In this document: piece by piece, positions 11,211 through 38,452 of the stretch
Position numbering within the stretch: position 1 is the first letter of the stretch
How the letters are laid out: every line of letters starts with the position of its first letter
Position numbers and translations under genes: made by a program
Assembly (NCBI RefSeq): GCF_014396385.1
Contig: NZ_CP060716.1
Span: 248,001 to 312,000, forward strand
DNA from: Leucobacter denitrificans
GTDB lineage: Bacteria > Actinomycetota > Actinomycetes > Actinomycetales > Microbacteriaceae
Direction: 5' to 3'
Length of the DNA stretch: 64,000 nucleotides
The notes under the pieces: model-generated
What the model saw: the letters and a program-made list of their open reading frames with translations, nothing else
What the model was told of the DNA's origin: nothing
Database searches by the model: none

Positions 11211-11215
11211 CAATC

Positions 11216-11226: not shown

Positions 11227-11275
11227 ATCAATTTTCATGGTGGATCGAACGTATCCTGAGAGGGTGCAAGGAGAC

Positions 11276-11297
11276 GGTACGTAGAGTACGTCGTACC
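11276..11297. promoter_or_regulatory. Nested inverted repeats in the gabT promoter region
   Basis: GGTACG (11276-11281) pairs with CGTACC (11292-11297), and within them ACGTA-GAG-TACGT (11279-11291) is a second palindrome. TAGAGT (11282-11287) inside them could be the -10 of gabT, with RNA starting near 11294. Either a regulator binding site or a short RNA hairpin upstream of the strong GGAGGA ribosome binding site (11321-11326). Confidence 0.42.
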
Positions 11298-11332
11298 GCG
11301 CATTTCGCTCACCACTTCAAGGAGGAACTTTC

Positions 11333-12667: not shown

Positions 12668-12694
12668 CCCATTCGCGCAGTCATACCAACTGGC

Positions 12695-12715
12695 ATCCTG
12701 CCCAAGTAGCAGGAT
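12695..12715 (+). other. Intercistronic hairpin between gabT and gabD
   Basis: ATCCTGC (12695-12701) pairs with GCAGGAT (12709-12715) around a 7-nt loop, with no T-run. It sits just before the gabD ribosome binding site (CAGGAGGA) and is more likely an RNA processing or stability element than a terminator. Confidence 0.45.
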
Positions 12716-12736
12716 CCACAACAGGAGGAATCACTC

Positions 12737-23352: not shown

Positions 23353-24303
23353 TTGCCTGAACTGCCCGAAGTCGAGGTCGTGCGAGCCGGTCTTGCCCCC
23401 GCGGTGACCGGCGCACGTGTTGTCGCCGTTTCGGTCGTGGATCCCCGTGCGCTCAAACGTCACATGCCACTCGGAGGTGACGACGGCCTCGGTGGGCACG
23501 GCCGCACTTTGACCGCTGAGGCGGGGCTTCTGCGATCCGCTGACTTCGAACGGCGCCTGACTGGCGCTGTGCTCGCGGCACCCGAACGCCGTGGCAAGTT
23601 TATGTGGATCCCTATTGTTGCGCCGAGCCAGCAAAGTGATGTCAGGGGAGCTGCTCTTCTTGCGCATCTCGGCATGAGTGGCCAATTGCTGCTTCGTGCG
23701 AATGATGCGCCGGATGATCGTCACGTTCGGATTCGCATCTGGATCGAACACCCGGAGCACTGCGAGCTTCGCGTCGACTTTGCCGATCAGCGACTTTTTG
23801 GGTCGCTTGCGCTCGACGGGTTGGTGCCGACGCTTCCGAGTGGATCGATTCCTGCGCAGGCGGTGCACATCGCGAGGGATCCGCTCGACCCGTACTTCGA
23901 CGACGCCGAGTTTGTGCGTCGTCTGCGTTCGCGTGCCACCGGCGTGAAGAAACTGCTGCTCGATCAGGCGCTCGTGAGTGGGGTGGGAAACATCTACGCT
24001 GACGAGACGCTGTGGCGGTCGAGGATCCACCCCGAAACGCTAGGAACCTCGGTCTCGCAGCGAGGAGCGACCGCGATGCTCGGCCACATGCGTGATGTAT
24101 TTGCGCAGGCGCTTGCCGAGGGCGGTACGAGCTTTGACGCGCAGTACGTCAACGTGAATGGCCAGGCGGGTTACTTCGCGCATTCGCTCCACGCGTACGG
24201 GCGCACAGGGGAGCCGTGCCACCGCTGCGGCGGGCCGATTCGGCGCATCACCTTCGGCGGTCGCGGTTCGCACTTCTGCCCCCAGTGCCAGCGGCGGCGG
24301 TGA
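23353..24303 (+). CDS. mutM: Formamidopyrimidine-DNA glycosylase (Fpg)
   Basis: Base-excision repair enzyme removing 8-oxoguanine. The mature N-terminus PELPEVEVVRAGL with catalytic Pro and Glu is intact, which fixes TTG at 23353 as start, an unusual codon. ERRGKFMW carries the conserved lysine, LLDQALVSGVGNIYADE is the H2TH segment, and the zinc finger CHRCGG...HFCPQC closes the protein. 316 residues, slightly long because of a Gly-rich insertion near residues 38-58. It starts 3 bases after rnc. Confidence 0.94.
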   Translation: MPELPEVEVVRAGLAPAVTGARVVAVSVVDPRALKRHMPLGGDDGLGGHGRTLTAEAGLLRSADFERRLTGAVLAAPERRGKFMWIPIVAPSQQSDVRGAALLAHLGMSGQLLLRANDAPDDRHVRIRIWIEHPEHCELRVDFADQRLFGSLALDGLVPTLPSGSIPAQAVHIARDPLDPYFDDAEFVRRLRSRATGVKKLLLDQALVSGVGNIYADETLWRSRIHPETLGTSVSQRGATAMLGHMRDVFAQALAEGGTSFDAQYVNVNGQAGYFAHSLHAYGRTGEPCHRCGGPIRRITFGGRGSHFCPQCQRRR

Positions 24304-24375
24304 CAGCGACTTGCTGATGCGCAGGTGAGTGCGGCGTCTGCCACTCGCAAACGGAGCTGCAGGTGCTGTTCGCTC

Positions 24376-24427
24376 TTGACAGTTCTAGAAATTGCATTCG
24401 CACTTAAGTAAAGCCTTAAATAAGGAG
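24376..24427 (+). promoter_or_regulatory. Promoter/operator region of the ArsR-AHSA1 pair
   Basis: TTGACA (24376-24381) resembles a -35 element. It is followed by the palindromes TTCTAGAA (24383-24390), CTTAAG (24403-24408) and CCTTA-AA-TAAGG (24414-24425), in sequence richer in A+T than the surroundings. These are candidate operators for autoregulation by the ArsR-type repressor encoded next. The ribosome binding site AAGGAG is at 24422-24427. Confidence 0.45.
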
Positions 24428-24435
24428 TTTCTAAA

Positions 24436-24780
24436 ATGAACGCGGCTGACCGACTGAGCTTGGTTTTTGCTGCGCTCGCTGATGCAACTCGACGGGAGAT
24501 TCTCTCGCGGCTTGCCGAAGGGCCCGCCACTGTCGGTGAGGTAGCCGCTCCATTTGAAATGAGTGCTCCGGCGATCTCTCAACACCTGAAAGTGCTCGAA
24601 CGTGCGGGTCTCGTCACGCGCACCGTTCACGCACAGTGGCGAACACTTTCACTCCAGACAGAGCCTCTTGATGAGGCGTCGGCCTGGGTAGAGAAGCAGC
24701 GAGACGAGTGGAACCTTCGCCTTGATGCCCTTGAGGAGCACCTTGAAGGGCTGAAGAAAAATGAGGCGAAGAAACAATAA
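24436..24780 (+). CDS. ArsR-family winged-helix transcriptional regulator
   Basis: 114 residues with the ArsR-type wHTH: LADATRREILSRLAEGPATVGEVAAPFEMSAPAISQHLKVLERAGLVTR. No metal-binding cysteines are present, so it is probably not a metal sensor; this subgroup is usually encoded with an AHSA1/SRPBCC protein, as here. AAGGAG precedes the ATG. Likely autorepressor of this two-gene unit. Confidence 0.88.
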   Translation: MNAADRLSLVFAALADATRREILSRLAEGPATVGEVAAPFEMSAPAISQHLKVLERAGLVTRTVHAQWRTLSLQTEPLDEASAWVEKQRDEWNLRLDALEEHLEGLKKNEAKKQ

Positions 24781-24798
24781 TTCGAAGGAGAAAGCACA

Positions 24799-25272
24799 AT
24801 GAATACGATCAGCCCGTCAGCGACGTCGGGCCCAGAATTCTCAATCACCCGAATACTTGAGGTGCCACGTGAACTCGTCTGGCGGGCCTGGACCGAAGAG
24901 TCAGAACTGGCCCAGTGGCTTCGACCATTCGGGGTCAGCACCGATTCTGTCTCGTTTGATGTTCGGGTGGGCGGCCACTACTCATACACGATGACGAACG
25001 ACGAGACCGGCGAGAAGTTTCCCACCGGTGGGGTCTTTCTTGAGGTTGAACCGATAGAGCGCCTCGTCTTCACATGGGGTGAACCCGATGCTCCCATCGA
25101 GAGCGCGCCGGTCATCACGCTCACGCTTATTGCGCAAGATCCTCAGCGAACTGAGCTGGTTTTTCACCTGCGCGGGTTCGAGGGTAAACCCGGTGATGGT
25201 TTTGTGTATGACGGTTGGGACGAAGCGCTAGTGAACTTCAGTCGTCATCTTGCCGGTGAACGACTGGGCTAA
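24799..25272 (+). CDS. SRPBCC / AHSA1-domain protein
   Basis: 157 residues of the AHSA1 (activator of Hsp90 ATPase homologue 1-like, START-superfamily) fold: ITRILEVPRELVWRAWTEESELAQWL at the start, GGHYSYTM, and a C-terminal helix (GWDEALVNFSRHL). These domains bind hydrophobic ligands; no catalytic activity can be assigned. 18 bases after the ArsR gene with GAAGGAGA as ribosome binding site; it is the regulated partner of that repressor. Confidence 0.85.
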   Translation: MNTISPSATSGPEFSITRILEVPRELVWRAWTEESELAQWLRPFGVSTDSVSFDVRVGGHYSYTMTNDETGEKFPTGGVFLEVEPIERLVFTWGEPDAPIESAPVITLTLIAQDPQRTELVFHLRGFEGKPGDGFVYDGWDEALVNFSRHLAGERLG

Positions 25273-25819
25273 CGCGCGGGATTCGGAGAAGAAAGCGGCG
25301 AACCAGAACAATTCGATTTTGACGCTTTCATCGCAGCGAAAATCGTGAGCTGCTACTGGTTTCGGTGAGACTACTTTTTGTGGGCCGTGATTATGGTGTG
25401 ACTGTGCGCATTGATCGTGATCACGAAAGATTCACAGTCTACGTACCAGTTCTTACCCCGCCGATTGACGCGCGACTCATCCACACTATGGGTGCGTATT
25501 GCGTTCTTGCACCAAGCGACAACATCATGAATCTCCAGTGAGAGGTTTCGCCGGAGTCGCTCTGCGCCTAGCTGTGTCGTATGTAAATCATCGATTCATA
25601 TGTTCATCGAGACTCTGTGCCCAGCACTCTAGACAGTTCTGAATTTGCTACGCAAGTACGCAAGTGAAGTGAGATTGGGGTCTGCAAGCAATGAGGGAGG
25701 CTCGATTTCAAAGGACGCCTTTCCTGATCGGATTTTCCCCCTAGTGTTGTTCGCAACTATATCCGACTGCTTCTTGCTGAGTGACTCGAGCGCTCAGGAT
25801 TCTGTTGGGGTGCGACCTA
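25273..25819. other. A+T-richer gene-poor stretch with one doubtful small ORF
   Basis: About 550 bases without a convincing gene, visibly richer in A+T than neighbouring genes. A 58-codon frame from GTG 25365 to TGA 25541 (VRLLFVGRDYGVTVRIDRDH...) has no recognised homology and may be a gene remnant. Tandem ACGCAAGT-like repeats occur near 25653-25670. Possibly a scar of past insertion or deletion beside the accessory region. Confidence 0.4.
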
Positions 25820-25831
25820 TAGCGTGGCCTC
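25820..25831 (+). promoter_or_regulatory. -10 box of the vanZ-like gene, predicted leaderless transcript
   Basis: TAGCGT (25820-25825; TATAGC overlaps it), six bases (GGCCTC), ATG at 25832. Confidence 0.45.
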
Positions 25832-26377
25832 ATGCGTATAGAACCCACCAACTCATATAAGGCAGGCAATACTCGCAAAACAACTGCCTGGGTAGTTCTC
25901 GCGCTGTACCTGGCATTTCTCTGCTGGATTCTCTTGCTCAAGATGCACGTTACTGACTTTGGGGATCTTGCAGGTCGACGGTCGCTCAACTTGGTTCCAT
26001 TCGGTGCAAGTGGTGAAATGGGCGGGCTCGGATCCCGGGAGATCCTTCTCAATGTGTTAGCTTTCGTTCCGCTTGGAATGCTCGTGTACCTTGTTGCGGC
26101 TCGACGCGGAGTTTGGCTATGGGTACCGCTTATCGGTACAGCAGTTGCGTTTGAAGTCACGCAGTTCGTCTTTGGAATTGGCGCGTCAGATATCACGGAT
26201 GTCATCACGAATACGGCTGGGGGACTGCTCGGCCTCGGCGCCGGATGGTTGGGTGTTCGCTTGCTTGGCGCGCGGGCGGTGCGGTGGATCCCCATCGGCC
26301 TGTGCGTGCTGCTAGCACTGTTCATCGGTGGTTTCTACACCTGGATGCTCGCGACAGGCGTACGTTTTCGGCTGTAA
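25832..26377 (+). CDS. VanZ-family membrane protein
   Basis: 181 residues with four or five hydrophobic helices and the VanZ-like layout: first helix with WILLLKMHVTDFG, then NLVPFGASGE, an ILLNVLAFVPLGMLVYLV helix and VAFEVTQFVFGIGASDITDVITNTAGGLLG. VanZ proteins are linked to low-level teicoplanin resistance, but most chromosomal members have no proven role. No neighbouring van genes are present. Confidence 0.85.
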   Translation: MRIEPTNSYKAGNTRKTTAWVVLALYLAFLCWILLLKMHVTDFGDLAGRRSLNLVPFGASGEMGGLGSREILLNVLAFVPLGMLVYLVAARRGVWLWVPLIGTAVAFEVTQFVFGIGASDITDVITNTAGGLLGLGAGWLGVRLLGARAVRWIPIGLCVLLALFIGGFYTWMLATGVRFRL

Positions 26378-26464
26378 GTGACCTGCGTTACACGCAAGAT
26401 TTGTTGTGCTCGTTCCACACACCCAGCCCACTCCCTCCTCGCCCTGGGGTGCTGCAGGGCCAGC

Positions 26465-26546
26465 GAGCGTCAGGCGAAGATGGAGTGTTATGCGCATCAA
26501 ATCGGCACCGAGGCTTCGCATGGCGCTAGAATTTCGCCTGACGCTC
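26465..26546. repeat. 14-bp inverted repeat, 54 bases apart
   Basis: GAGCGTCAGGCGAA (26465-26478) and its exact reverse complement TTCGCCTGACGCTC (26533-26546), in non-coding DNA. Could be a small non-autonomous mobile element, an RNA hairpin or a protein-binding loop. No target duplication was recognised. A smaller hairpin (GCCCTG/CAGGGC) lies just upstream, possibly ending vanZ transcription. Confidence 0.5.
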
Positions 26547-26667
26547 AATCGCAGAGCGGTCGCCAGTGGTGGATCGGCGAATGCGCCCGACGCGACCGAC
26601 TTGACTGCGGCGACACGCCGATAAACAGGCCTGTGACCAGGCTATTTGAAATTACTTCAACTTCCGT

Positions 26668-26724
26668 TTGCATTCTGGTAATACCAGATCTACACTCTTG
26701 GTAGTACCAAGCTGGTAATACCAG
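26668..26724 (+). promoter_or_regulatory. Promoter of the amidohydrolase-Rieske operon with three TGGTANTACCA operators
   Basis: TTGCAT (26668-26673) and TACACT (26691-26696) are spaced by exactly 17 bp. Three perfect palindromes overlap it: CTGGTAATACCAG (26675-26687) in the spacer, TTGGTAGTACCAA (26698-26710) over the predicted start site and CTGGTAATACCAG (26712-26724) just after it. TGGT-N3-ACCA is the recognition core of FadR/PdhR/LldR-type GntR regulators, and one such regulator is encoded at 32622-33374. The positions predict repression relieved by a ligand. Confidence 0.75.
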
Positions 26725-26775
26725 ATTGGATACTCCAGAAAACTGGCGCATTACCGAAAACAACGGAGTTATCTC

Positions 26776-27888
26776 ATGCAACTCACCGAACAGGCACCCC
26801 AACTGGTCGATCAGGCGGAACAGGCAGCCGCCAATGCAGCAGTCGTTGACTGCGATGTACACCCCATCCTGGAGTCATCTGAGCAGCTCATGCCGTACCT
26901 TGACGAGTACTGGCAGGATCAGCTCACAGGACAAAACTTTCCTTCGATGGAGCCGAACTTTCACCCGATCGCTTCGCCGATCGCTGAGCGTCCCGGCCTT
27001 GCCAAGGGGCCGACAGGTCGCGCGGCAACCCGCGTCGAAGACCTCGTGGCTGACGTCTTCGCTGATGGTAAGACCGACTACGCGATCCTCAACCCGCTCT
27101 ACAGCATTCAGCAGATGCATCAACCGCGTCGTGAGCAGGCACACGCTCGCGCATTGAACACGTGGATTCAGCGCGAGTGGCTCGACAAAGACGACCGTCT
27201 TCGCGCCTCGATCGTGATTCCTCTTGGCAGCGGTGAAGCTGCGGCTGAAGAGATCGAATACTGGGCAAACACCGACAAGCGTTTCGTTCAGGTTCTTGTA
27301 CTTGGCCAGACCGAGCTCCTCCTCGGTCGCCGCCACTATTGGGCAATTTGGGAGGCTGCAGCGAAGCACAACCTCCCGGTTGCGATCCACATCGGCGGCG
27401 TGTTCCGCCAGGCTCCAACGTCGGTGGGCTGGCCGGTAACGCACCTCGAGTGGTACGTCGGTCAGCAAGCAAACTTCGAGGCCCAGATACTCTCGATCGT
27501 CTCTGAGGGCATCCTCCAGAAGTTCCCGAACACCAAGGTTGTGCTCACCGAAACTGGTTTCAAGTGGATGGCACCGTTCCTCTGGAAGTTCGACAAGCTG
27601 TGGAAGACCTACCGTCCAGACGTGCCGTGGCTCGATAGCCGCCCGTCAGACATGGTGCGTAAGCACTTCAAGGTGACCACTGCACCCTCCGATGGTGCTG
27701 AAATCAGGGGCAAGCTCGACCAGGCGGTTGACCGCCTCGGGTCGGAAGACATGCTCGTCTACTCGAGCGATTACCCTCACCAGCACCACTCGCAACCGCG
27801 CGATATCGAGGCGGGCACTGAATCTGCAGAGCTCGTCGAGAAGATCAATCGATTCAACGCATTCGAACTGTACGGCCTCACGAAGTAG
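26776..27888 (+). CDS. Amidohydrolase-superfamily protein (COG2159 type), first of a pair
   Basis: 370 residues, TIM-barrel metal-dependent fold. The first strand ends VVDCDVHP with Asp27-x-His29 where classical members have HxH; later metal or catalytic positions are VAIHIGGVF (His), LTETGFKWM, and YSSDYPHQHH (Asp). This group includes decarboxylases such as ACMSD and LigW and also hydrolases. It is first of an operon with a second paralogue, a Rieske protein and a flavin reductase, which suggests a redox role rather than simple hydrolysis. GGAG precedes the ATG. Substrate unknown, probably an aromatic or cyclic acid. Confidence 0.8.
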   Translation: MQLTEQAPQLVDQAEQAAANAAVVDCDVHPILESSEQLMPYLDEYWQDQLTGQNFPSMEPNFHPIASPIAERPGLAKGPTGRAATRVEDLVADVFADGKTDYAILNPLYSIQQMHQPRREQAHARALNTWIQREWLDKDDRLRASIVIPLGSGEAAAEEIEYWANTDKRFVQVLVLGQTELLLGRRHYWAIWEAAAKHNLPVAIHIGGVFRQAPTSVGWPVTHLEWYVGQQANFEAQILSIVSEGILQKFPNTKVVLTETGFKWMAPFLWKFDKLWKTYRPDVPWLDSRPSDMVRKHFKVTTAPSDGAEIRGKLDQAVDRLGSEDMLVYSSDYPHQHHSQPRDIEAGTESAELVEKINRFNAFELYGLTK

Positions 27889-27917
27889 CCGAGTTCAGAG
27901 ACTTACGAGGATTCATC

Positions 27918-29060
27918 ATGACTATCACCCAGACCTACGATCCGATTACCGACACTAAGTCGAGTGGCGTTGACCCCGTCAAGGTAACTACCGGCATTAT
28001 TGATGTCGACATTCACCCGCTACCCGCACCCGGCAAGCTCGATCCATACCTCCCTGAGAAGTGGAAGAGCTACATGGAGCGCTTCGGCGTTCGCACCACG
28101 CATGGCCTCTCACACGTCTCGGAGTACCCGCAGATGTTCGGCAACGCGATGCGCGGCGACAGCTGGCCCGAAGAGGGTATGCCGGGCAGCGACCTGAAGC
28201 TTCTGCAGGAGCAGCACCTCGACAAGTACAACGTCGAGCTCGGCACGCTGCAGTGCCTGTCGCCCGGCGGAAAGACGCTGTCGCCTGCGAACCAGGCGCT
28301 GAATCAGGACCTCGGCGCCGCGCTCTGCACGGCAGTGAACGACTGGCAGCTCCACGACATGGTGGCTGCCGATCCCCGCCTGCGACTCGCGATGGCGTCG
28401 ATGTGGGAAGCACCTGACCTCGCGGCTCAGGAAATCTACCGTATTGGTCAGGACAACGGCGTAGTTTCGGTGCTCGGCCTCGCGAAGACGCTTGAGCCCC
28501 TCGGTTCGAGAAAGTACTGGCCAATCTTCCAAGCGGCAGTCGATGTGGATCTTCCACTCCAGATCCACCTCTCACAGGGCGGCGGCCACCCAAACACCGG
28601 AACCGGCTGGACCTCGTACCACACCGAGTACCACACGGGCATGGTGCAGAGCTTCCAGAACCAGATCGTGAGCCTGATTCTCTCGGGCACATTTGATCGC
28701 TACCCAGACCTACGTGTGCTGTTTGTAGAGGGCAACGTGGCTCACTTCGCTCCACTCATCGAGCGACTCGATTACCACTGGGAAGTCATGCGCGACGAGG
28801 TGCCAGACCTCAAGCGCAAGCCGAGTGAGTACATCAGGGACCACATTTGGCTCTCAACTCAGCCGCTCGACGAGCCTGACAACCCGCAGCACCTGTTCGA
28901 AATGATCGAGGAGTACTGCGCGGAGAACATTCTTTACGCGAGTGACTACCCGCACTTCGACTTCGATTCTCCAGACTCCTCGTTCCCAGCAAGCATGCCG
29001 CAGCAGATGAAGGAAGACATTCTGCTCAATAACGGCAAGCGCTTCTTCAAGCTCGACTAA
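27918..29060 (+). CDS. Amidohydrolase-superfamily protein (COG2159 type), second of a pair
   Basis: 380 residues, same fold as the preceding gene product. It has IIDVDIHP with Asp31-x-His33, LQIHLSQGGGHPN (His), VEGNVAHFAPLIERLDYHW and YASDYPHFDFDSP (Asp). The two proteins are only distantly similar outside these motifs, so they look like subunits of one complex or successive enzymes rather than a recent duplication. It starts 29 bases after its partner and is followed by the Rieske gene after 28 bases. Confidence 0.8.
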   Translation: MTITQTYDPITDTKSSGVDPVKVTTGIIDVDIHPLPAPGKLDPYLPEKWKSYMERFGVRTTHGLSHVSEYPQMFGNAMRGDSWPEEGMPGSDLKLLQEQHLDKYNVELGTLQCLSPGGKTLSPANQALNQDLGAALCTAVNDWQLHDMVAADPRLRLAMASMWEAPDLAAQEIYRIGQDNGVVSVLGLAKTLEPLGSRKYWPIFQAAVDVDLPLQIHLSQGGGHPNTGTGWTSYHTEYHTGMVQSFQNQIVSLILSGTFDRYPDLRVLFVEGNVAHFAPLIERLDYHWEVMRDEVPDLKRKPSEYIRDHIWLSTQPLDEPDNPQHLFEMIEEYCAENILYASDYPHFDFDSPDSSFPASMPQQMKEDILLNNGKRFFKLD

Positions 29061-29088
29061 GCCACCGGCAGACAAAGGAGTATCAGTC

Positions 29089-29610
29089 ATGGCGAAATAC
29101 ACAGTTGCAAACGTCGGCGATCTTCAGCCGGGTGAGCGCATCGTTGTTGAACTTGAAGGTCGCTCTGTGGGCGTGTTCAATGTCGACGGCGAGTTCTTCG
29201 CACTGCTCGACCAGTGCCCGCACGCCGGTGCCGCGCTCTGCAGCTTCGGCAAAGTGTTTGGCAAGTCCGAGGCAGTGGCGCCCGATGCAGAGATTACCTA
29301 TGAGCGCTCGCGCTCGATCCGCTGCCCGTGGCACCAGTGGGAGTTCGACATTCGCACCGGCGAATCGTTCTACGACCCCGCCAATGCCCGCGTACGCAAG
29401 TACAACGTCGAGGTAGTCGAGGGTTGCCCCGAAGACGTCATCGACCTTGAAGCGCAGGGGATTCAGAAGGGCCCGCACATTCTCGAGGGCTATCACGTGA
29501 GTGTCGAGGAAGACATGGTCGTGGTAGACACGAGCCGCGTACGTCGCGGCACCCAATCACGGCGCGCCACGCGCGTCACACAACTTCCATCGACGGGAGC
29601 ACGACCATGA
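29089..29610 (+). CDS. Rieske [2Fe-2S] protein (electron carrier)
   Basis: 173 residues. The cluster ligands are Cys43-x-His45 (DQCPHAG) and Cys79-x2-His82 (CPWHQWEFD). The gap between the two halves, about 33 residues, is longer than in standard Rieske ferredoxins (about 15-17), so there is a loop insertion (residues about 50-75). No catalytic oxygenase domain and no signal peptide are present; it is a soluble electron donor or a small subunit. It overlaps the reductase gene by four bases (ATGA), indicating tight coupling. Confidence 0.86.
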   Translation: MAKYTVANVGDLQPGERIVVELEGRSVGVFNVDGEFFALLDQCPHAGAALCSFGKVFGKSEAVAPDAEITYERSRSIRCPWHQWEFDIRTGESFYDPANARVRKYNVEVVEGCPEDVIDLEAQGIQKGPHILEGYHVSVEEDMVVVDTSRVRRGTQSRRATRVTQLPSTGARP

Positions 29611-30608
29611 GTACCGCAGTCAAAGAGGCGATCTTCTTTCCAGAAGCAAGCGCGACGCAGGGAACCTTCCCGGTGACCGTTGTCTCAGCAGTCGAAGCCG
29701 CAGACGGCATTCGCGCACTGACGCTCACGAGGCCCGGGGGAGAACCACTCCCAGAGTGGGGTCCCGGCGCGCACATTGACGTGCATATCTCTCCAGAGAT
29801 CATTCGTCAGTACTCGCTCAGCGGCAGTCCAGCGAACCGCGAGGCGTGGCGCATCGGCATTCTGCGCGAGCCTGAGAGCCGCGGTGGATCGGAGGCGATC
29901 CACGATCGCCTCGAAGCTGGCGACACCATCTGGGTGAGCGAGCCGAAGAACAACTTCAATTTCGGCCCGGCGAAGCAGTACCTGTTTATCGCGGGCGGGA
30001 TCGGAATTACCCCGCTCATTCCGATGATCAAGGCGTGCCACGAGGCCGGTGCCGACTGGCGCCTCGTCTACGGTGGCAGGTCGCTCAGCTCGATGGCGTT
30101 CACCGACGAACTGCTCGCACTCGGCGACCGCGTCACGCTGTGGCCGCAAGACACCAACGGGCACATCGATCTCGCTGGGCTGCTCGACGCGCCCGACGCC
30201 GAGACCGAGGTGTACTGCTGCGGCCCCGGCCCACTACTTCAGGCGGTTGAGGGCAAGTTCGATGCGCTCGATCCCGGACTGAAGTGTGCATTGCACATTG
30301 AACACTTCAAGCCCAAGGAGCTCCCGAAGGGTGCCATCAACCTTCCGTTCACGGTGATCTGTGATTACTCGGACGTTGAGGTTGAGGTCGGTGCCGACGA
30401 GAGCATTCTCGACGCAGTGCAGCGTGCTGGCATTCAGTTGCCTTCTTCGTGCCGCGAAGGCACCTGCGGCACGTGCGAAACCGTGGTGCTCGAAGGAATT
30501 CCGGAGCACAGGGACTCATTCCTCACAAAGGATGAGCAGGCCTCGAACGAGGTCATGACGCCCTGCTGCTCACGGTCAAAGACTCCAGTACTCGTGCTGG
30601 ATTTGTGA
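29607..30608 (+). CDS. Ferredoxin-NAD(P)H reductase with C-terminal [2Fe-2S] domain (PDR/VanB type)
   Basis: 333 residues: an N-terminal flavin-binding barrel (RQYSLSGSP), an NAD-binding domain (FIAGGIGITPLIPM) and a plant-type ferredoxin domain with Cys282, Cys287, Cys290 (CREGTCGTC) and Cys320. This is the class IA oxygenase reductase layout, as in phthalate dioxygenase reductase and VanB. It would pass electrons from NAD(P)H to the Rieske protein encoded just upstream. A terminator follows. Confidence 0.88.
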   Translation: MSTAVKEAIFFPEASATQGTFPVTVVSAVEAADGIRALTLTRPGGEPLPEWGPGAHIDVHISPEIIRQYSLSGSPANREAWRIGILREPESRGGSEAIHDRLEAGDTIWVSEPKNNFNFGPAKQYLFIAGGIGITPLIPMIKACHEAGADWRLVYGGRSLSSMAFTDELLALGDRVTLWPQDTNGHIDLAGLLDAPDAETEVYCCGPGPLLQAVEGKFDALDPGLKCALHIEHFKPKELPKGAINLPFTVICDYSDVEVEVGADESILDAVQRAGIQLPSSCREGTCGTCETVVLEGIPEHRDSFLTKDEQASNEVMTPCCSRSKTPVLVLDL

Positions 30609-30623
30609 TCCGCGAGGGTCACT

Positions 30624-30660
30624 AATGCCCCTTCGCATGAGGCGGAGGGGCATTTCATTT
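30624..30660 (+). terminator. Terminator after the reductase gene
   Basis: AATGCCCCT (30624-30632) pairs with AGGGGCATT (30646-30654), extended by four further pairs including one wobble, with a 5-nt loop and TTCATTT after it. It separates the four redox genes from the TRAP-type gene, or reduces expression of the latter. Confidence 0.75.
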
Positions 30661-30683
30661 CAAGAGATTCTCGAGGAGGAGAA

Positions 30684-31700
30684 TTGAAGAAACTCACCAT
30701 TGTGCCCATTGCTGTCGCATTCCTACTCGGAGTGTCGGCGTGCAGTGGCACTGCGCAGGCAGACACACAGGCCGGCGACGACGCGACATACAACTTCGAC
30801 ATGTCGGTCACCACGAGCGAAACTTCAACCTGGTTCAAGGGAGCCGAGAAGTTTGCAGAGCTTGTTGCCGAAGAAAGTGACGGTCGGATCAACATCAGCG
30901 TGTTCGCAAATGACTCGCTCTCAGCTGGCGATGCAATTGCGGGCATTGAGCAGGTGATGAACGGTGACAAAGCGCTGAGCTACAACTCTGCGATCCAGCT
31001 TTCCGGCATCGATGATCGCTTTAGCGCAATCGCCGCTCCGTTCACCTTCAGCAACTATGAAGAGGTGGATTCGGTGCTCGAATCGCCTGAGGCACAGGAT
31101 GCATACGCCGGTCTTGCTGAAGAGCACGGCGTGAAGATGCTCGGATTCGGCGAGAACGGCATGCGCCAGATCAGCAACAATACGCATGAGATTGACGGGC
31201 CTGAAGACCTGAAGGGGTTGAAGGTACGCGTGGCAGGTTCGAAGCTGTTTATGGACATGTACCAGACCTTGGGTGCTGATCCACTGGTCATGAGCTTCTC
31301 AGAGCTGTTCACGTCGCTCCAGACCGGTACGGTCGACGGGCAAGAAAACGCGGTGGATCTCTTCTACGCGAACGGTCTCGTAGAGGTGCAGGACTACCTC
31401 ACGATCATGAACTACGTGTACGACCCACTGCTGCTCATGATGAACCAAGAGATGTTCGACAGCATGAGCGACGCTGACCAGCAGATCATGCTCGATGCAG
31501 CGGCAGAGGCGAACGCGTACCAGATCGCAATGATCCGTGAGCTCGAGCAGGAACAGCTCAAGGACATCAAGGATCAGATGCAGGTCAAGGAACTCTCGGC
31601 AGCAGAAATTGCCGAGTTCCGTGAGGCGCTTGAGCCGGTTTACGAGGAATGGATTCCGACCTGGACTCCAGAGCTCTACGAAGTCATTCAGCCGAAGTAA
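30684..31700 (+). CDS. TRAP-type (DctP family) substrate-binding lipoprotein, orphan
   Basis: 338 residues. The signal sequence ends in a lipobox (VSACSG) so the protein should be lipid-anchored at the outer face of the membrane. The mature part is a DctP-type fold: the segment MRQISNNTHEIDGPEDLKGLKVRV and FTSLQTGTVDGQENAVDLFYANGLVEVQ are typical, the arginine of KVRV being the usual carboxylate-binding position. It starts with TTG after GAGGAGGAG. No DctQ or DctM membrane gene lies in the window, so its transport partner is missing or distant. Likely brings an organic acid to this catabolic cluster. Confidence 0.85.
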   Translation: MKKLTIVPIAVAFLLGVSACSGTAQADTQAGDDATYNFDMSVTTSETSTWFKGAEKFAELVAEESDGRINISVFANDSLSAGDAIAGIEQVMNGDKALSYNSAIQLSGIDDRFSAIAAPFTFSNYEEVDSVLESPEAQDAYAGLAEEHGVKMLGFGENGMRQISNNTHEIDGPEDLKGLKVRVAGSKLFMDMYQTLGADPLVMSFSELFTSLQTGTVDGQENAVDLFYANGLVEVQDYLTIMNYVYDPLLLMMNQEMFDSMSDADQQIMLDAAAEANAYQIAMIRELEQEQLKDIKDQMQVKELSAAEIAEFREALEPVYEEWIPTWTPELYEVIQPK

Positions 31701-31729
31701 CGCTCATTTAATACAAGACAAGGAACGAA

Positions 31730-32554
31730 ATGTTCACCCTGGAGAATCAAGTAGCCCTCGTGTTTGGCGGAGGCTCGATAGGTGGCGAGACCAATAACGG
31801 GCTCGCTGCGTGCCTTGCGTTTGCTCAGGCCGGAGCCAAAGTGGCCCTGGTTGACGCGAACCCCGATGCAGTTGCGGGCGCGCTTGATCGCTTTGAACAA
31901 GAACTCGGCGATCAGGCGAAGGGCAACGTGATCGGCCTCCAGGCCAACGTCACGAATCCCGACGAGGTGAAGGCCGCGGTCGACGCTACGATCGAGACCT
32001 TCGGCAAGATCGATATTCTGCACAACAATGTAGGTATCGCCCGTATGGGTGGTCCCATTGAGATGGATCTCGACGAATGGAACCTCGTCGTCAACGTGAA
32101 CCTTACGAGTGCGTTTCTCACGAGCAAGTATGTGTTGCCGCACATGCTTGCGCAGGGGAAAGGTTCGATCACGAACGTCGCTTCCGTCGGAGGCATGCGG
32201 TACATCGGATACAACTATCCGAGCTACACCGCGACGAAAGCTGCGCTTATTGGGTTCACACAGAACCTTGCGGTTGAATACGCCTCGCAGGGAATTCGTG
32301 CGAACTCTATTTCTCCCGGGTACATTGAAACTCCGATGATCTACCGCCAGATAAGCGGTGCCTATGACTCCGTTGAAGAGATGGTGGCGGCGAGGAATGC
32401 GCTGAGCCCCACCGGAAAGATGGGGGAGTCGAACGACGTCGCAGCTGCAGCGGTCTATCTTGCCAGTGATGCCGCGAAGTATGTCAACGGGATATGCCTT
32501 CCGGTTGACGGTGGCCTGATTCAGCGCGCTACGGTTCCCGTAGCAGATCACTAG
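31730..32554 (+). CDS. Short-chain dehydrogenase/reductase
   Basis: 274 residues. The cofactor motif is VFGGGSIGGETNNGLA, a glycine-rich form slightly unlike the usual TGxxxGxG, followed by VALVDANPDA (an Asp that favours NAD). NNVG, the catalytic Ser in VASVGGM and Tyr-x3-Lys in YPSYTATKAAL are present. GGLI at the C-terminus is typical. It starts 29 bases after the TRAP gene with AAGGAA, and is probably the oxidising or reducing step on an alcohol or ketone intermediate of the pathway. Confidence 0.86.
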   Translation: MFTLENQVALVFGGGSIGGETNNGLAACLAFAQAGAKVALVDANPDAVAGALDRFEQELGDQAKGNVIGLQANVTNPDEVKAAVDATIETFGKIDILHNNVGIARMGGPIEMDLDEWNLVVNVNLTSAFLTSKYVLPHMLAQGKGSITNVASVGGMRYIGYNYPSYTATKAALIGFTQNLAVEYASQGIRANSISPGYIETPMIYRQISGAYDSVEEMVAARNALSPTGKMGESNDVAAAAVYLASDAAKYVNGICLPVDGGLIQRATVPVADH

Positions 32555-32593
32555 ATCAGGCGCGGCTTAAAATAGCCGCAGTCGATTCGACAC

Positions 32594-32634
32594 AAGGGGT
32601 TCTGGGCGCCGATTAAGGTGCTCAGAACCCTTTT
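32594..32634. terminator. Bidirectional terminator between the SDR and FadR-type genes
   Basis: GGGTTCTG (32597-32604) pairs with CAGAACCC (32623-32630), extended by A-T and G-T pairs at the base, with TTTT after the stem and AA before it. It serves the convergent genes on both sides and overlaps the stop of the regulator gene. Confidence 0.65.
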
Positions 32635-33374
32635 CGTTGGAGCAGCTCGATGAGCCAAGTGAAGTGTGCGTCAGCCTTCTCGATCGCCCGCGGGAGGTCG
32701 CGATCTCGGAGCGCTGCGTAGTAATCATCGTGTTTGTGGATGAACTTCTCGATGTCGTGCTCGTAATCGAGGCTGTCGTGCGTGACCTTGAACACCTGGT
32801 CGAGCGCACGCCAGAAGAACATGAGACCATCAAGGCCTGCGGCTTCAAGTATGCCGAGGTGGAACTCGGAGTCACCCTGCACAATGTCATCTCCGGACTC
32901 TGCCTTCGTGAGCAGGTCGAGGCCGGCCTTGGCTCGCGAGAGATCTGCGTCTTCGAGCTGTGTGGTGAGAATGATCACAGCCTGCATCTCCAGCGACTTA
33001 CGGAGTGACACCAGCGAGTAGATGTCAAAGTTTACGCTGAGTAGGCCAAGCAACAGTACGTCGCTCAGGGCGTCGGGGTGAACGCCAGAGAACACCGACT
33101 TTTCGCGCTCACGCTTCGTGATGATTCCGAGCGATGACAGTCTGCCGATGCGATCGCGAAGCGCAGTGCGGCTGATGCCGAGTCGTTCTGCAAGATCGCG
33201 CTCACCAGGCAGTGCGGTGCCGACATCGAGCGTTAAGAGCTGAGCCATGACACGACCGAGCGTCGGGTCCTTGAAAAACGACGTGAGAAACTCTTCGTTC
33301 TGAAAACGGTCGAGTCCCGCTTCAGGGAGAGTCGAAGTGTTCGTTTCGCTTGGTGTCATGGGGAGTGTTCGCAT
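32622..33374 (-). CDS. FadR-subfamily GntR transcriptional regulator
   Basis: 250 residues. The winged helix (about 35-100; ALPGERDLAERLGISRTALRDRIGRLSSLGIITKRE) is GntR type and the C-terminal FCD domain (SLVSLRKSLEMQAVI...SEFHLGILEA...HKHDDYYAAL...ADAHFTWL) carries the His/Asp positions that bind metal and organic acids. It very likely binds the three TGGTANTACCA palindromes at 26675-26724 and so controls the catabolic operon. Start could be the ATG at 33374 or one five codons later (33359). Confidence 0.87.
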   Translation of the reverse strand: MRTLPMTPSETNTSTLPEAGLDRFQNEEFLTSFFKDPTLGRVMAQLLTLDVGTALPGERDLAERLGISRTALRDRIGRLSSLGIITKREREKSVFSGVHPDALSDVLLLGLLSVNFDIYSLVSLRKSLEMQAVIILTTQLEDADLSRAKAGLDLLTKAESGDDIVQGDSEFHLGILEAAGLDGLMFFWRALDQVFKVTHDSLDYEHDIEKFIHKHDDYYAALRDRDLPRAIEKADAHFTWLIELLQRKGF

Positions 33375-33427
33375 ACCTTTACTGGCCGTCTCTCCATCCT
33401 ATGGCGAAACGATGCGTCAGCTTGGCG

Positions 33428-33898
33428 TTACTCGCCGGTTCGAGGAGTCAGAGCCGGAGTGCGCGGCGTGGAGTGGTTGGAGCATAAGGCCGCTCTTTCA
33501 ACGGTGGCAACGACTTCGTGGCAAAGATCCAAATCTTGCTCACTCATGTTGCTCTGGCTGTTCCAGAGAGCAAACATGCAGCGCCTGTCTGACTCACGGA
33601 TCGGCACGACAACCACATTATTCATTGAGCACTGAACTTCACAAACAGGTATGAATAGGGGAGTGGTGATCGAGTCGTCGCCTGCATGAAGTGAATGCCA
33701 GGTTCGAGCGGGCACCCATGCGGCTTCACCCTCGAGCAGGGTGACTGTCTTCTCGCCATATACGAGATCAGCTTGGCCGCGTGTTTGCCATAGAAGAATA
33801 TGTTCGAGCGTGTGCACTCGCTCGGTGAGTTCAGCGCCAGAGATGGCTGGAACAACTTCGGGAGTCACTGTGGCCCCAAGGTCGTCGTTCATCCGCAT
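33428..33898 (-). CDS. AraC-type N-terminal cupin sensor domain without DNA-binding domain
   Basis: 156 residues resembling the arabinose-binding-like cupin half of actinobacterial AraC regulators: VHTLEHILLWQTRGQADLVYGEKTVTLLEGEAAWVPARTWHSLHAGDDS and a following helical part. The usual C-terminal pair of AraC helix-turn-helix motifs is absent; the frame stops and only 53 bases separate it from the FadR-type gene. It is a truncated regulator or a stand-alone ligand-binding protein. GGAG precedes the ATG. Confidence 0.6.
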   Translation of the reverse strand: MRMNDDLGATVTPEVVPAISGAELTERVHTLEHILLWQTRGQADLVYGEKTVTLLEGEAAWVPARTWHSLHAGDDSITTPLFIPVCEVQCSMNNVVVVPIRESDRRCMFALWNSQSNMSEQDLDLCHEVVATVERAALCSNHSTPRTPALTPRTGE

Positions 33899-34033
33899 GT
33901 GTGAAGCTCCATCTCAAACAATCATCTGATGAAGGTAAGTATATGCGAAGTATGCACCATTTCGCGAGGATTTTTGTGGAATTGAGCTTCGCAAAACGGG
34001 GGAAGATCAATATCTGCACCACACCCGCAGGGC
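33899..34033. other. Divergent intergenic region, A+T-rich, with long-range inverted repeat
   Basis: Non-coding DNA between the AraC-type sensor gene (minus) and the TDT gene (plus). It is A+T-rich and contains GAAGCTC near 33902 and its complement GAGCTTC near 33984. No clear operator pair was identified. Confidence 0.3.
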
Positions 34034-34046
34034 TAACGTAGAGGTT
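34034..34046 (+). promoter_or_regulatory. -10 box of the TDT transporter gene, near-leaderless
   Basis: TAACGT (34034-34039), seven bases, ATG at 34047. Confidence 0.4.
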
Positions 34047-35129
34047 ATGGACACTCAATCGCCTACTGGGCAGACCTCCATGGGGGCGCGAAGTGAGTTC
34101 TCGCAGGCGATTGAGAACCTCGCTCCCGGGTACTTTGCGCTCGTCATGGGCACGGGAATCATCTCGGTTGGGTTGAGCATGGTCGGTTTTCAGGCCGCTT
34201 CTGCTGTGCTGCTGGGGATCGCCGCCTGCTGCTACGTAGTGCTGTGGGTCCTGTACGTTTGGCGCGCGATCCACTTTCGTGAAGCTATGCTGCACGATCT
34301 CAGGGACCCAGAGAAAGCGTTCGCATACTTCACGATCGTTGCGGGCTCGGGCGTGCTTGCCGTCGCGCTGATCCGCCACGGGATCATCGGTCCCGCTGTG
34401 GTGCTCATCGCATTCGCTGCACTGCTGTGGTTTGTATTTGGGTATCTCTTGCCCTGGCAGGTCTTCATGACGCGTGACGGAAAACCGATTCTTGCCCGCA
34501 CCAATGGCACCTGGTTCATTTGGGCGGTTGCGAGCCAGTCGGTGGTCGTTTGTATGGCGCAAATCGAGCCGCACGTCACCGCGGGGCGGCACTGGGTCGG
34601 AATTTTGGCGGTGCTCTCATGGTCGGTAGGGGTAGCGCTCTACGCAGGTGTCGCAATTTTGGTGTTGCTGCGCATCATCCACTACGGAATCACTGCAGCT
34701 GAATTCGAGCCCCCGTACTGGGTAGCGATGGGCGCCCTTGCGATCGCAGTGGTTGCGGGAACCAACATCATCGATATGCAGTCGACGCCAATGGTCGATG
34801 CGACGCGAACGATCATTGCTGGCACCGTCGTCATTTTCTGGAGTTTCTGCGTGTGGTTGATTCCGATGCTCGTTGGCGCCGGGTTCTGGCGCCATATCGG
34901 CCATCGTGTTCCGCTCAAGTACATGCCAACGCTCTGGTCGATGGTGTTTCCCATCGGCATGTTCGCCGTTGCGTCGGTGAACATCGGGCGTGTGGATCGT
35001 CTTCCCGTCGCCGAGGCCATCGGCCACGTGATGATGGTCGTTGCCGTGCTCGTGTGGCTCACGGTGTTTATCGGAATGCTGATCCGCATTACACGGGTAC
35101 TTGCGCGCTCACTTGGCATCCGCGCATAA
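34047..35129 (+). CDS. TDT (tellurite-resistance/dicarboxylate transporter, SLAC1-like) family protein
   Basis: 360 residues with about ten membrane helices; the first, ENLAPGYFALVMGTGIISVGLSMVGF, is the conserved opening of the TDT family, which includes TehA, Mae1 and SLAC1-type channels. Members move C4-dicarboxylates, sulfite or anions. Its position beside a catabolic operon with a TRAP binding protein suggests organic-acid export, but that is inference. Confidence 0.8.
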   Translation: MDTQSPTGQTSMGARSEFSQAIENLAPGYFALVMGTGIISVGLSMVGFQAASAVLLGIAACCYVVLWVLYVWRAIHFREAMLHDLRDPEKAFAYFTIVAGSGVLAVALIRHGIIGPAVVLIAFAALLWFVFGYLLPWQVFMTRDGKPILARTNGTWFIWAVASQSVVVCMAQIEPHVTAGRHWVGILAVLSWSVGVALYAGVAILVLLRIIHYGITAAEFEPPYWVAMGALAIAVVAGTNIIDMQSTPMVDATRTIIAGTVVIFWSFCVWLIPMLVGAGFWRHIGHRVPLKYMPTLWSMVFPIGMFAVASVNIGRVDRLPVAEAIGHVMMVVAVLVWLTVFIGMLIRITRVLARSLGIRA

Positions 35130-35146
35130 ACCAACGACCCACTGAG

Positions 35147-35908
35147 TTACGCTGAATCACCGTACAGACGCACGGTGTTGCCCCACGGGTCGTTCACGGT
35201 AAGCACGCTCTCGCTCATTGTGTGCTCGATGTTCTGGGCGGCGAGCCGATCCGCAATGCTCGCGAGAGCCTCGTTATCGCCGAGGTGGATCGCGAAGCCA
35301 CCTAGCCCCGACGCATCTGCGCCGCGCACACCTGCCCCCGCACTCTGCCAGGTGTTGGTTGCGAGGTGGTGATGGTAGCCGCCAGCCGAGTAGAAGACAG
35401 CGCCCTCTGATTCTGCGGTGATATCGAAGCCGAGCGTATCGGCATAGAACTCGCGCGCATCATCGAGGTCGCCAACCTTCAGGTGCACGTGGCCCATGAC
35501 AGTGTCTTCTTCGCTCGGAGTACTTCCCATGTGCTCCTGAATGAAGGCGTTGGGGTCGAGCGGGGCCGAGCCCATCGTGACGTGCCCGTCCTTATTCCAC
35601 TCCCACGTGTCTTCCGGGGTGTCGGTGTACAGCTCTAGCCCGTTACCGTCGGGATCCATGAAATAGAACGCAAGGCTCACGGCGTGGTCGGCGCTGCCGC
35701 CGTAGCTCGCGGGTGCAACTGTTGCGATGTTGTAGAGCACACCGGCCAATGCGGGCGCATCGGGGTAGAGGATCGCCGAGTGATAGAGGCCAGCGTCAGT
35801 ATGCACGACCGGCGCGCTCTCTGCGACCTCGGAGATCAGGAGTAGTGGGTTCTCGTCTAGCCCGAGCGTCACCGAGGTCTCGGTCTCGTCAAGAACCTCG
35901 AGTCCCAC
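35147..35908 (-). CDS. VOC-family (glyoxalase/catechol-2,3-dioxygenase-like) protein, 5'-truncated
   Basis: 253 residues. Two VOC modules: the first lacks its opening strand, the second (GHVHLKVGDLDDAREFYADTLGF...) is complete with His and Glu positions. Full-length CatE-like relatives start about 30 residues earlier with a HVHL-type metal-ligand strand. Upstream in frame one reads GSYVDAVGLEVLDE, the expected continuation of FYxDVLGLEV, but a TAG lies 16 codons before the GTG at 35908, so the first strand is gone. Either a decayed gene or one restarted at GTG 35908. Confidence 0.6.
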   Translation of the reverse strand: MGLEVLDETETSVTLGLDENPLLLISEVAESAPVVHTDAGLYHSAILYPDAPALAGVLYNIATVAPASYGGSADHAVSLAFYFMDPDGNGLELYTDTPEDTWEWNKDGHVTMGSAPLDPNAFIQEHMGSTPSEEDTVMGHVHLKVGDLDDAREFYADTLGFDITAESEGAVFYSAGGYHHHLATNTWQSAGAGVRGADASGLGGFAIHLGDNEALASIADRLAAQNIEHTMSESVLTVNDPWGNTVRLYGDSA

Positions 35909-35942
35909 CGCGTCGACGTAACTCCCTGAAACGCACCCCTGG

Positions 35943-36386
35943 ATGAGCTATTCGCGGTGGGGAATGGCATGGCGGGCCTGGCTCGGTGTGCTGGTGGTGT
36001 CGATGCTCGGGAGTGTTGCAGCTTCACTCGTGATTTCGGGTGGACCCAATCCAATGCTGATGTACGGAATCACTCTCGTGGGAATTCTCCCCATAATCTG
36101 TGCCGCGCTCGCCGCAGTTCTCGGTCCGTGGCTCAGGCGCTTCTATCCGTTCTCACAATCGTTGCTGTTTGGTGGGATCACAAGTGCAACGGTGTGCCTC
36201 ATTTTCGCAATCATCTCGCTGGTCGAGTGGATCGGCCGTGGTCCATGCCCGCCAGATACGTACTGCTCAGGCCCATTCGATGGTGTTCTTTGGGGAATCT
36301 GGTTGTTCGGACTTCCGATCTTTCTGTTCCCGTGCATCGGATTTGGCTTGTCGATCTGGGCACAAACGCGAAAGGGCCAGAAATAG
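35943..36386 (+). CDS. Hypothetical membrane protein ended by an in-frame amber codon
   Basis: 147 residues with four hydrophobic helices and a loop holding two cysteines (GRGPCPPDTYCSGPF). No known family recognised. The stop is TAG at 36384-36386. Reading on in the same frame to TGA at 36468 gives 27 more residues, FWPIAAGAIVIFGTFLLFAL..., a clear transmembrane helix followed by a short tail. The natural protein probably had 175 residues and five helices, cut short by a point mutation; a sequencing error or read-through is also possible. Confidence 0.6.
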   Translation: MSYSRWGMAWRAWLGVLVVSMLGSVAASLVISGGPNPMLMYGITLVGILPIICAALAAVLGPWLRRFYPFSQSLLFGGITSATVCLIFAIISLVEWIGRGPCPPDTYCSGPFDGVLWGIWLFGLPIFLFPCIGFGLSIWAQTRKGQK

Positions 36387-36470
36387 TTCTGGCCAATCGC
36401 AGCGGGTGCGATCGTGATTTTCGGAACGTTCCTCTTGTTCGCACTGATCCGCCCTAGCGCCGGGATATGA
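36387..36470 (+). pseudogene. Detached C-terminal transmembrane segment behind the amber codon
   Basis: 27 codons in frame with the preceding gene, strongly hydrophobic, ending in TGA at 36468-36470, with no start codon or ribosome binding site of its own. Confidence 0.45.
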
Positions 36471-36480
36471 TCAACCCGTT

Positions 36481-37758: not shown

Positions 37759-38452
37759 GCACCAGGTAGACGGGTTCGTGCCAGGCGACGCGCACCTCGG
37801 TCGGCGTCACTCCGGTGGGAAGAGCGAAGAGGAACTCACGTGTCCAAGTGCGCGGGCGTTCGATAGGGGACTCGATTACCTCGTCCGAGAACGGGGCCAC
37901 GGTAGGTCCCGGTGCGTCTTCGGGCACGCATCGGAGCACGACCGGGGCTAGATATAAATCGTCGGCGTTCGCGGATTCTATTCCGCTTCGGAAATCGTAG
38001 CGGTTGCCTTCGGCGTCGCCGAGTCCGACCTCGCAGGCGTCGAGGAACTGGTCGGGTGATGCCTCGAACTCAAGGTTCACGGCCCAGAGCATCGCCCCTT
38101 TGACGGCGACGAAGTCGTCTGTAGTCTCACGCGGCTCGAGCGAGATCAATCGGACCGTTACTTCGCGATCCCACTTCACCCCGTCGAGCTCGAGATAACG
38201 CTGTGTGAGAGTGCCCTCAGATGCCCCGGCGACAATCGGAGCCGACCACTGCCACGGGAGGTAGAGCGTAAAGAGCCGGAACGATGACGCGATGAGTGCG
38301 AGCGCGAGCAGAGGCAGCAGCAGCGCGAGCCAGAGTCGGTTGCGCCTCCACCAGCCGATGCGTCCGGGGGCCGCTCTGTTCGCAGGTTCGGTGTTGAGTG
38401 CCTCATTCGGTTCCAGAGCCTCATCAGTGGGCATTGCAGTACCGTCGCTCAT
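37739..38452 (-). CDS. Membrane-anchored protein of unknown function, third of three
   Basis: 237 residues: a short Ala/Glu-rich cytoplasmic N-terminus, one helix (LWLALLLPLLALALIASSF, about 37-56) and an extracellular beta-rich domain (about 60-235) with two cysteines (DACEVGLG and LRCVPED) that could be disulphide-bonded. It overlaps the preceding gene by ATGA. Similar size and organisation to its two neighbours suggests one complex. Confidence 0.7.
   Translation of the reverse strand: MSDGTAMPTDEALEPNEALNTEPANRAAPGRIGWWRRNRLWLALLLPLLALALIASSFRLFTLYLPWQWSAPIVAGASEGTLTQRYLELDGVKWDREVTVRLISLEPRETTDDFVAVKGAMLWAVNLEFEASPDQFLDACEVGLGDAEGNRYDFRSGIESANADDLYLAPVVLRCVPEDAPGPTVAPFSDEVIESPIERPRTWTREFLFALPTGVTPTEVRVAWHEPVYLVLTPPTE

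Follow-up and report, generated by a model that had tools for sequence, protein, structure and literature searches.

A four-gene operon in a 64,000-nucleotide stretch of the Leucobacter denitrificans genome (contig NZ_CP060716.1, positions 248,001 to 312,000; hereafter the window) very probably codes for a monooxygenase with three components, of the same kind as AibH1H2-AibG-AibF. We favor this reading, which is drawn from sequence comparison, because of near full-length homology to the two AibH subunits, conservation of their metal ligands, a shared gene set and gene order, and the finding of no Rieske oxygenase in the genome. The operon consists of four + strand open reading frames (ORFs) at window positions 26776–30608. 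H1 (26776–27888, 370 aa) is an AibH1-like amidohydrolase-fold subunit with 67% identity to AibH1, and H2 (27918–29060, 380 aa) is an AibH2-like amidohydrolase-fold catalytic subunit (65% identity to AibH2) with a predicted dinuclear Mn/Fe or Fe2 site. G (29089–29610, 173 aa) is an AibG-like small Rieske [2Fe-2S] ferredoxin (PF00355, E 1.5e-16; CPH...CPWH), and F (29607–30608, 333 aa), whose ORF overlaps that of G by ATGA, is an AibF-like flavin/[2Fe-2S] ferredoxin reductase of the phthalate dioxygenase reductase type (Fer2 and NAD_binding_1 domains). An earlier note, written from the letters alone, had described two amidohydrolase-superfamily proteins, both with Asp-x-His, together with a small Rieske protein and a flavin/[2Fe-2S] reductase joined by the ATGA overlap; the Pfam assignments, the motifs (D27-V-H29 in H1, D31-I-H33 in H2) and the ORF coordinates bear this out.

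Searches of the PDB sequences with phmmer placed AibH1 first for H1 (6m2i_A, 8ful_A, and 6m1w_A, E about 5e-163) and AibH2 first for H2 (6m1w_B, E 2.9e-175), with homology over nearly the whole length and identities to the Rhodococcus wratislaviensis subunits (PDB 6m1w, 6m2i, and 8ful–8fuo) of 66.9 and 65.1%, respectively. The next matches of either protein were the other Aib subunit and the enzymes with PDB entries 8sm6–8sm9 (E about 1e-29 or better), and DitZ, PtmU3 and decarboxylases were far weaker. Both barrels matched Pfam Amidohydro_2 (PF04909; E 2.3e-31 and 1.7e-32) and were the only matches to that family in the 2.4-Mb genome at E up to 0.001; an NCBIfam scan assigned neither to a family. 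Among PDB sequences, F matched 6laa, a P450 fusion reductase, at E 4e-72 and 2pia, phthalate dioxygenase reductase, at E 7e-45.

All metal ligands of AibH1H2 and the second-shell Asp are present in the window pair. In the published numbering (PMC7782822), AibH2 ligands D25, H27, H211, E265, D337, and H340 correspond to D31, H33, H217, E271, D343, and H346 of window H2, and the second-shell D342 to D348. AibH1 ligands D24, H26, H201, E255, and D328 (and H331) correspond to D27, H29, H205, E259, and D332 (and H335) of window H1, which has His rather than an acidic residue at the position aligned with AibH2 Asp342. Within a chosen subset of loci (25 fetched for H2 and 17 for H1), the H2 ligand set was identical in 27/27 compared sequences and the H1 set in 19/19. 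The proteins aligned were read from tblastn hits by extension as far as the nearest stop on either side, with 30 residues kept ahead of the hit, such that their N-termini are approximate.

In R. wratislaviensis C31-06, the three-component monooxygenase made up of AibH1H2, AibG, and AibF converts alpha-aminoisobutyrate (Aib) to alpha-methyl-D-serine with NADH electrons delivered via the flavin reductase and then the Rieske ferredoxin, and no product was reported from any incomplete set of the four proteins tried (Hibi et al., 2021, PMC7782822). The dinuclear catalytic site lies in AibH2 only, AibH1 being mononuclear and non-catalytic (PMC7782822), and the solved enzyme is an alpha2-alpha'2 heterotetramer that hydroxylates one Aib methyl group. 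For this enzyme, Powell et al. (2023, PMC10401708) reported Mn/Fe as the active cofactor and the incorporation of a single O atom from O2 into the product. The window shares with this system the gene set, the order H1-H2-G-F, and similar protein sizes (373, 378, 169, and 322 aa for AibH1, AibH2, AibG, and AibF); G and F are likened to AibG and AibF from their domains, order, and size. By analogy, H1 and H2 would form an alpha2-alpha'2 hydroxylase in which H2 carries the O2-activating dinuclear site and H1 serves as a partner with one metal. F would take two electrons from NADH, G would pass them to the H2 site, and the reduced site would bind O2 and hydroxylate a C-H bond of the substrate.

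The earlier note had proposed that the pair forms an amidohydrolase-fold oxygenase receiving its electrons through the reductase and Rieske protein, and considered it the best candidate for an undescribed system. The proposed mechanism is well supported by the homology and the conserved ligands and is most likely right, and it was already known: the four-gene set was described in 2021 (PMC7782822), the Mn/Fe cofactor in 2023 (PMC10401708), and the wider family, named AROs, in 2024 (PMC10811679). Its picture of a two-subunit pair agrees with the homology to AibH1H2, although the partners appear unequal because only AibH2 holds the dinuclear catalytic site. The link that it drew to PtmU3 is real but distant. 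PtmU3 of platensimycin biosynthesis (PDB 6omp) has an amidohydrolase fold and a dinuclear oxygenase site, as predicted for the window, but matches at only E 2e-8 (H1) and 2e-13 (H2), and its pocket, unlike that of AibH1H2, is much larger and takes CoA-ligated substrates (PMC7782822). The AROs SfbO and three crystallized relatives (PDB 8sm6–8sm9) share the kind of dinuclear ligand set, an adjacent small Rieske gene and the PF04909 fold with the window, but match H2 much more weakly (E 1e-65 to 1e-38) than AibH2 does.

Alternatively, the barrels could have an ordinary hydrolase or decarboxylase activity (ACMSD/resorcylate type), with the Rieske-reductase pair serving some other oxygenase. Both do match PF04909, and decarboxylases are among their weaker PDB matches (at best E 5e-9 for H1 and 3e-12 for H2), but AibH1 or AibH2 and four further AROs stand on top (E 1e-36 or better throughout), H2 retains the second-shell Asp of the dinuclear site (D348), and Rieske and barrel genes are neighbors in nearly all loci surveyed (see below); we consider this alternative very improbable and rejected an ordinary decarboxylase on the strength of the PDB matches. 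Three-component Rieske non-heme oxygenases likewise draw electrons from a reductase and a Rieske ferredoxin, but they have an alpha subunit of Ring_hydroxyl_A (PF00848), which had 0 matches in the window's genome, in a search that was positive in 4/14 control genomes. A Rieske oxygenase elsewhere in the genome was accordingly dismissed as electron acceptor. Cytochrome P450 matches occurred at two places (1.43 and 2.13 Mb), each at least 0.5 Mb from the operon (0.275 Mb) whether the chromosome is taken as linear or circular, and a P450 was also dismissed as partner of G and F. The earlier observation that the operon comes without a terminal oxygenase agrees with these searches, which did not extend genome-wide to diiron hydroxylases of the soluble methane monooxygenase type.

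To place the operon among its relatives, one genome per species (84,980 species) was scanned with two AibH2 peptide patterns as seeds, yielding 221 stretches, of which 62 loci were confirmed and are treated as a sample. A Rieske homolog lay within 1.5 kb of a barrel gene in 60/62 loci, the exceptions being L067 and L068, the latter with no barrel found at 1e-6. In published surveys, 90% of 555 further AibH2-like proteins co-occurred with a small Rieske gene (PMC10401708), and a small Rieske gene beside a PF04909 gene served as the search pattern for more enzymes (Liu et al., 2024, PMC10811679). A pair of adjacent barrel genes was detected in 13/62 loci (11 by the locus survey, plus L007 and L008, whose neighboring barrels the merging rule of that survey had fused and tblastn showed to be both present), and a reductase of the window F type was found within 5 kb in 9/62. 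Gene calls at the loci were weighted by codon-position G+C, which set some starts too far upstream and lost H2 of L007 and L017 to a shadow frame; presence and absence were therefore based on tblastn.

Twelve loci are close relatives, comprising 11 from the scan at 60–66% H2 identity by tblastn and one plasmid locus (6 of the 86 plasmid records with a match were examined). H1, H2, and the Rieske gene occurred together in 12/12, with window G 58–72% identical by tblastn to its counterpart in every case, and the reductase was present in 9/12, with no match near L007, L008, and L011. Six query proteins revealed no Rieske-oxygenase alpha subunit in the 12 close loci or the window; where they matched, the match was to the small Rieske gene only, or to that gene plus the end of the preceding one. 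Usable queries came from 6 of 7 fetched regions, L129 yielding none. The four genes thus co-occur elsewhere, and no Rieske oxygenase was found nearby, so that two conditions under which the earlier note would have given up its proposal (no co-occurrence, or a true oxygenase always close by) do not refute it.

In a joined H1+H2 tree of 19 taxa, the window pair fell inside the Aib clade with support of 100. Its position within the clade was less certain (node 59, neighboring nodes 45 and 47), and R. wratislaviensis AibH1H2 paired with the Streptomyces locus L014 (support 100) rather than with the window pair. Of the features that define the AibH1H2 type, the catalytic barrel, partner barrel, small Rieske protein, reductase, and clade placement are all present in the window; the Aib catabolic cluster is not. 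In R. wratislaviensis, dedicated catabolic genes flank H1H2GF in the order aibR-D1-E-H1-H2-G-F-T-C-A, AibC belonging to the serine hydroxymethyltransferase (SHMT) family, whereas the window has genes for DctP, a short-chain dehydrogenase (SDR) and an FCD-domain GntR regulator instead. Among the genes scanned with Pfam at 25832–35908, none belonged to AibD1-, AibE-, AibT-, AibC-, or AibR-like families, and no LysR regulator, D-MeSer dehydrogenase, Amms/aldehyde dehydrogenase, permease, Amma decarboxylase, or alanine dehydrogenase was found in this interval; for alanine dehydrogenase and the amino-acid permease the absence holds for this interval only, the genome not having been searched for either.

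These observations bear on whether the operon encodes a plain Aib hydroxylase whose later steps are carried out by general enzymes elsewhere in the genome. The 65–67% identity, the fully conserved ligands, and the placement inside the Aib clade fit such a role, and a PF03446 protein (3-hydroxyisobutyrate dehydrogenase family) and, about 1.2 kb from it, a match to aldehyde dehydrogenase (both at 1.556–1.559 Mb) could replace AibD1 and AibE. Another aldehyde dehydrogenase is encoded in the window at 12737–14206, 12.6 kb upstream of the operon. Against this role stand the missing Aib-type families, a TRAP (tripartite ATP-independent periplasmic) binding protein where an amino-acid permease would be, and the pairing of R. 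wratislaviensis AibH1H2 with L014. Only one SHMT was found in the genome (592 bits vs. the 335-bit NCBIfam cut-off); it is presumably the housekeeping GlyA, which leaves no obvious AibC. Moreover, at the column aligned with the SfbO sulfate contact Arg235, window H2 has Met where AibH2 and eight relatives have His and the group of L009, L015, L016, and L017 has Gln. This candidate residue is a lead on specificity, not proof. The sulfate-contact mapping recovered N67, R232, R235, and W341 as published; at 280 it gave D where the paper has Y, and column 280 was not trusted for this reason. On balance, a plain Aib hydroxylase seems doubtful, though it deserves serious consideration. As a separate observation, the aldehyde dehydrogenase gene at 12737–14206 lies, with a class-III aminotransferase gene, divergent from a PucR-type regulator gene (all three within 9999–14206), possibly an amine or gamma-aminobutyrate-type catabolic set.

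The different setting, with a TRAP protein, SDR, and GntR regulator and no Aib catabolic genes, suggests that the substrate of the window's AibH1H2-type enzyme may be a small carboxylate other than Aib. Downstream of F, with a start 75 bp after its end, is the + strand gene for the DctP TRAP-type solute-binding protein (30684–31700; PF03480, E 6.3e-80), followed on the same strand by the SDR gene (31730–32554; PF13561, E 5.2e-61) and, convergently, by the − strand gene for the FCD-domain GntR-family regulator (32622–33374; PF07729, E 9.4e-15, and PF00392, E 1.6e-7), a candidate regulator of the operon. From this context, DctP would bind the small carboxylate for uptake, the SDR would oxidize the hydroxylated product, and the neighboring GntR protein would control expression at three palindromic operators upstream of H1; taken jointly, a small, possibly alpha-branched, non-Aib carboxylate handled in this manner is a proposition we regard as evenly balanced. 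The earlier description of a compact operon ending at 30608 holds for the four co-directional genes and is less secure as to its downstream limit, since dctP and the SDR gene (30684–32554) may be co-transcribed with H1-F. A terminator-like match at 30584–30601, at the end of F, speaks against a common transcript with dctP; such matches numbered 5 in the region vs. 5.2 in shuffled sequence, and promoter-like matches 3 vs. 1.8, which is near the shuffled level.

Three exact copies of the palindrome TGGTANTACCA lie 53–100 bp before the H1 start, at 26676–26686, 26699–26709, and 26713–26723. Allowing up to one mismatch, the window contained 4 matches (3 exact), compared with a mean of 0.30 and a maximum of 2 over 100 shuffles. 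FadR-subfamily regulators bind TNGTNNNACNA (PMC2230225; PMC4494728), which TGGTANTACCA fits, and the palindromes are thus likely operators of the window's FCD/FadR-type GntR regulator, with binding inferred from the sequence. Genome-wide, exact TGGTANTACCA occurred at 4 places, 3 of them before H1, and a reversed-pattern control at 6, so that the single remaining site may be chance. That fourth site (G000:C1:382131; L006 1501–1511) is followed after about 70 bp by the gene of an apparently AEC-family carrier, which is 26% identical over 220 residues to the AEC carrier of the cluster described next. In the 12 close loci, a search of the DNA preceding H1 for perfect palindromes containing GGT or TGT yielded no operator common to them.

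Relatives of the window DctP, SDR, and GntR proteins, at 55, 65, and 36% identity, respectively, are encoded together elsewhere in the same genome (L102, G000:C1:906000–925000; DctP at 915.9 kb). This cluster also encodes DctQ, DctM, E1 alpha and beta subunits and a short E2-like acyltransferase of a 2-oxoacid dehydrogenase, a second SDR, a PCC-domain protein, and an AEC carrier, and looks like an acetoin/2-oxoacid-type catabolic cluster. It contains four TGGT-N3-ACCA sites. One, TGGTTCTACCA, is located about 50 bp ahead of the GntR gene, and dctP is preceded, again at about 50 bp, by this sequence on the coding strand. The window cluster and L102 may act on related small acids or ketols. No DctQ or DctM gene lies beside the window dctP, the genome's DctM places being elsewhere, and the window DctP may borrow its membrane subunits from L102. 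One DctM gene (G000:C1:1847763–1849069; L074, L075) matched as two separate pieces, at profile positions 2–182 and 196–412, as if interrupted.

The genes around the 12 close loci suggest that enzymes of this one type act on several substrates. In L014 the neighbors are the dehydrogenases, LysR regulator, and amino-acid permease of the aib cluster; L010, L012, and L013 also have aib-type dehydrogenases and LysR, here alongside an enoyl-CoA hydratase-like gene and a ketol-acid reductoisomerase. A third setting includes an SDR, a thiolase-like protein, and an acyl-CoA synthetase (L009, L015, L016, and L017) or the latter two (L078). A fourth contains a nitrile hydratase gene, an MFS carrier, thiolase, and SDR genes (L007, L008, and L011, with a synthetase in L008 and L011), which suggests a nitrile-derived acid as substrate. 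None of the four settings recurs around the window operon. It is the Aib-like, ketol-acid reductoisomerase, thiolase plus acyl-CoA synthetase, and nitrile hydratase settings that underlie the idea of several substrates. With even chances of being right, we propose that H1H2GF is an exchangeable C-H hydroxylation cassette used in several actinomycete catabolic routes and that the window version acts on a TRAP-delivered small carboxylate, feeding a pathway related to L102. While the picture of the enzyme class itself is unchanged by the window operon, this divergent relative offers a handle on substrate range, combining a full predicted active site and redox partners of its own with another transporter-dehydrogenase-regulator setting, and no report of a TRAP-linked version of the Aib-type monooxygenase was found in the open-access literature searched.

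Further details of these settings were apparent. The dehydrogenases of L010, L012, and L013 are of the 3-hydroxyisobutyrate and aldehyde types. L007, L008, and L011 have H1-H2-G without a reductase match in 21 kb and with nitrile hydratase within 10 kb; in L007 and L008 amidase genes also lie within 10 kb. Pseudonocardia parietis has two H1H2GF modules on the same contig in two catabolic settings (L009 and L013), with IS21-type transposition genes directly upstream of the L009 module.

Several points weigh against assigning the window operon to the AibH1H2 kind or against the pathway proposed for it. The quaternary structure, metals, electron path, and chemistry are all inferred from the relative, and this applies to metal content and O2 use in particular. 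The window pair has the longest tip branch in the Aib clade, and its H2 deviates at 16 of 171 columns common to 13 other members, which deviate at 0–4 each. Co-occurrence is not universal: on a Neorhizobium plasmid, the 17 kb of locus L081 contain two barrels but gave no Rieske match, and neither of two 36% relatives in the window's own bacterial family (L070 and L071, with flanks of about 1.5 kb on each side) has one. Among the genomes with close loci, 9/10 have Rieske oxygenases elsewhere (the check covered 11 of the 12 loci in 10 genomes, L009 and L013 sharing one), so that genome-wide absence was found only in the window's genome and one other (G414); the 55 Rieske-oxygenase places were not mapped to contigs singly, and absence near the modules rests on the six-query search. 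None of the 12 close loci showed a counterpart of the window DctP, SDR, or GntR protein at ≥35% identity, which leaves the proposed pathway with the support of a single genome. The single SHMT does not prove the absence of an Amma decarboxylase from another family, and the KM of purified AibH1H2 for Aib exceeds 100 mM, a very weak apparent affinity (PMC10401708) that renders even the reference substrate somewhat doubtful.

The operon is accessory, set in the 15 kb between mutM and smc (24303–39324), as judged from its absence from the same-genus mutM regions and nearly all family genomes searched. Matches at E 1e-60 were found in 3/398 family genomes (its own and two with a 36% relative) and in none of nine listed same-genus genomes. 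None of the seven genes from H1 to GntR was found at 1e-8 in 6/6 same-genus regions of about 19 kb from mutM, in two of which smc was reached, about 11 and 17 kb from mutM. The operon was probably acquired. A decayed or non-functional acquired island would account for this patchy occurrence, for a DctP without membrane subunits beside it, and for the long branch of the window pair, but we consider decay extremely unlikely: none of the four frames is interrupted or shortened, the ligands are conserved, three exact operator-like palindromes precede H1, and codon-position G+C follows a coding pattern across the operon (0.71–0.77 at third positions, GC3, vs. 0.38–0.47 at second positions, GC2).

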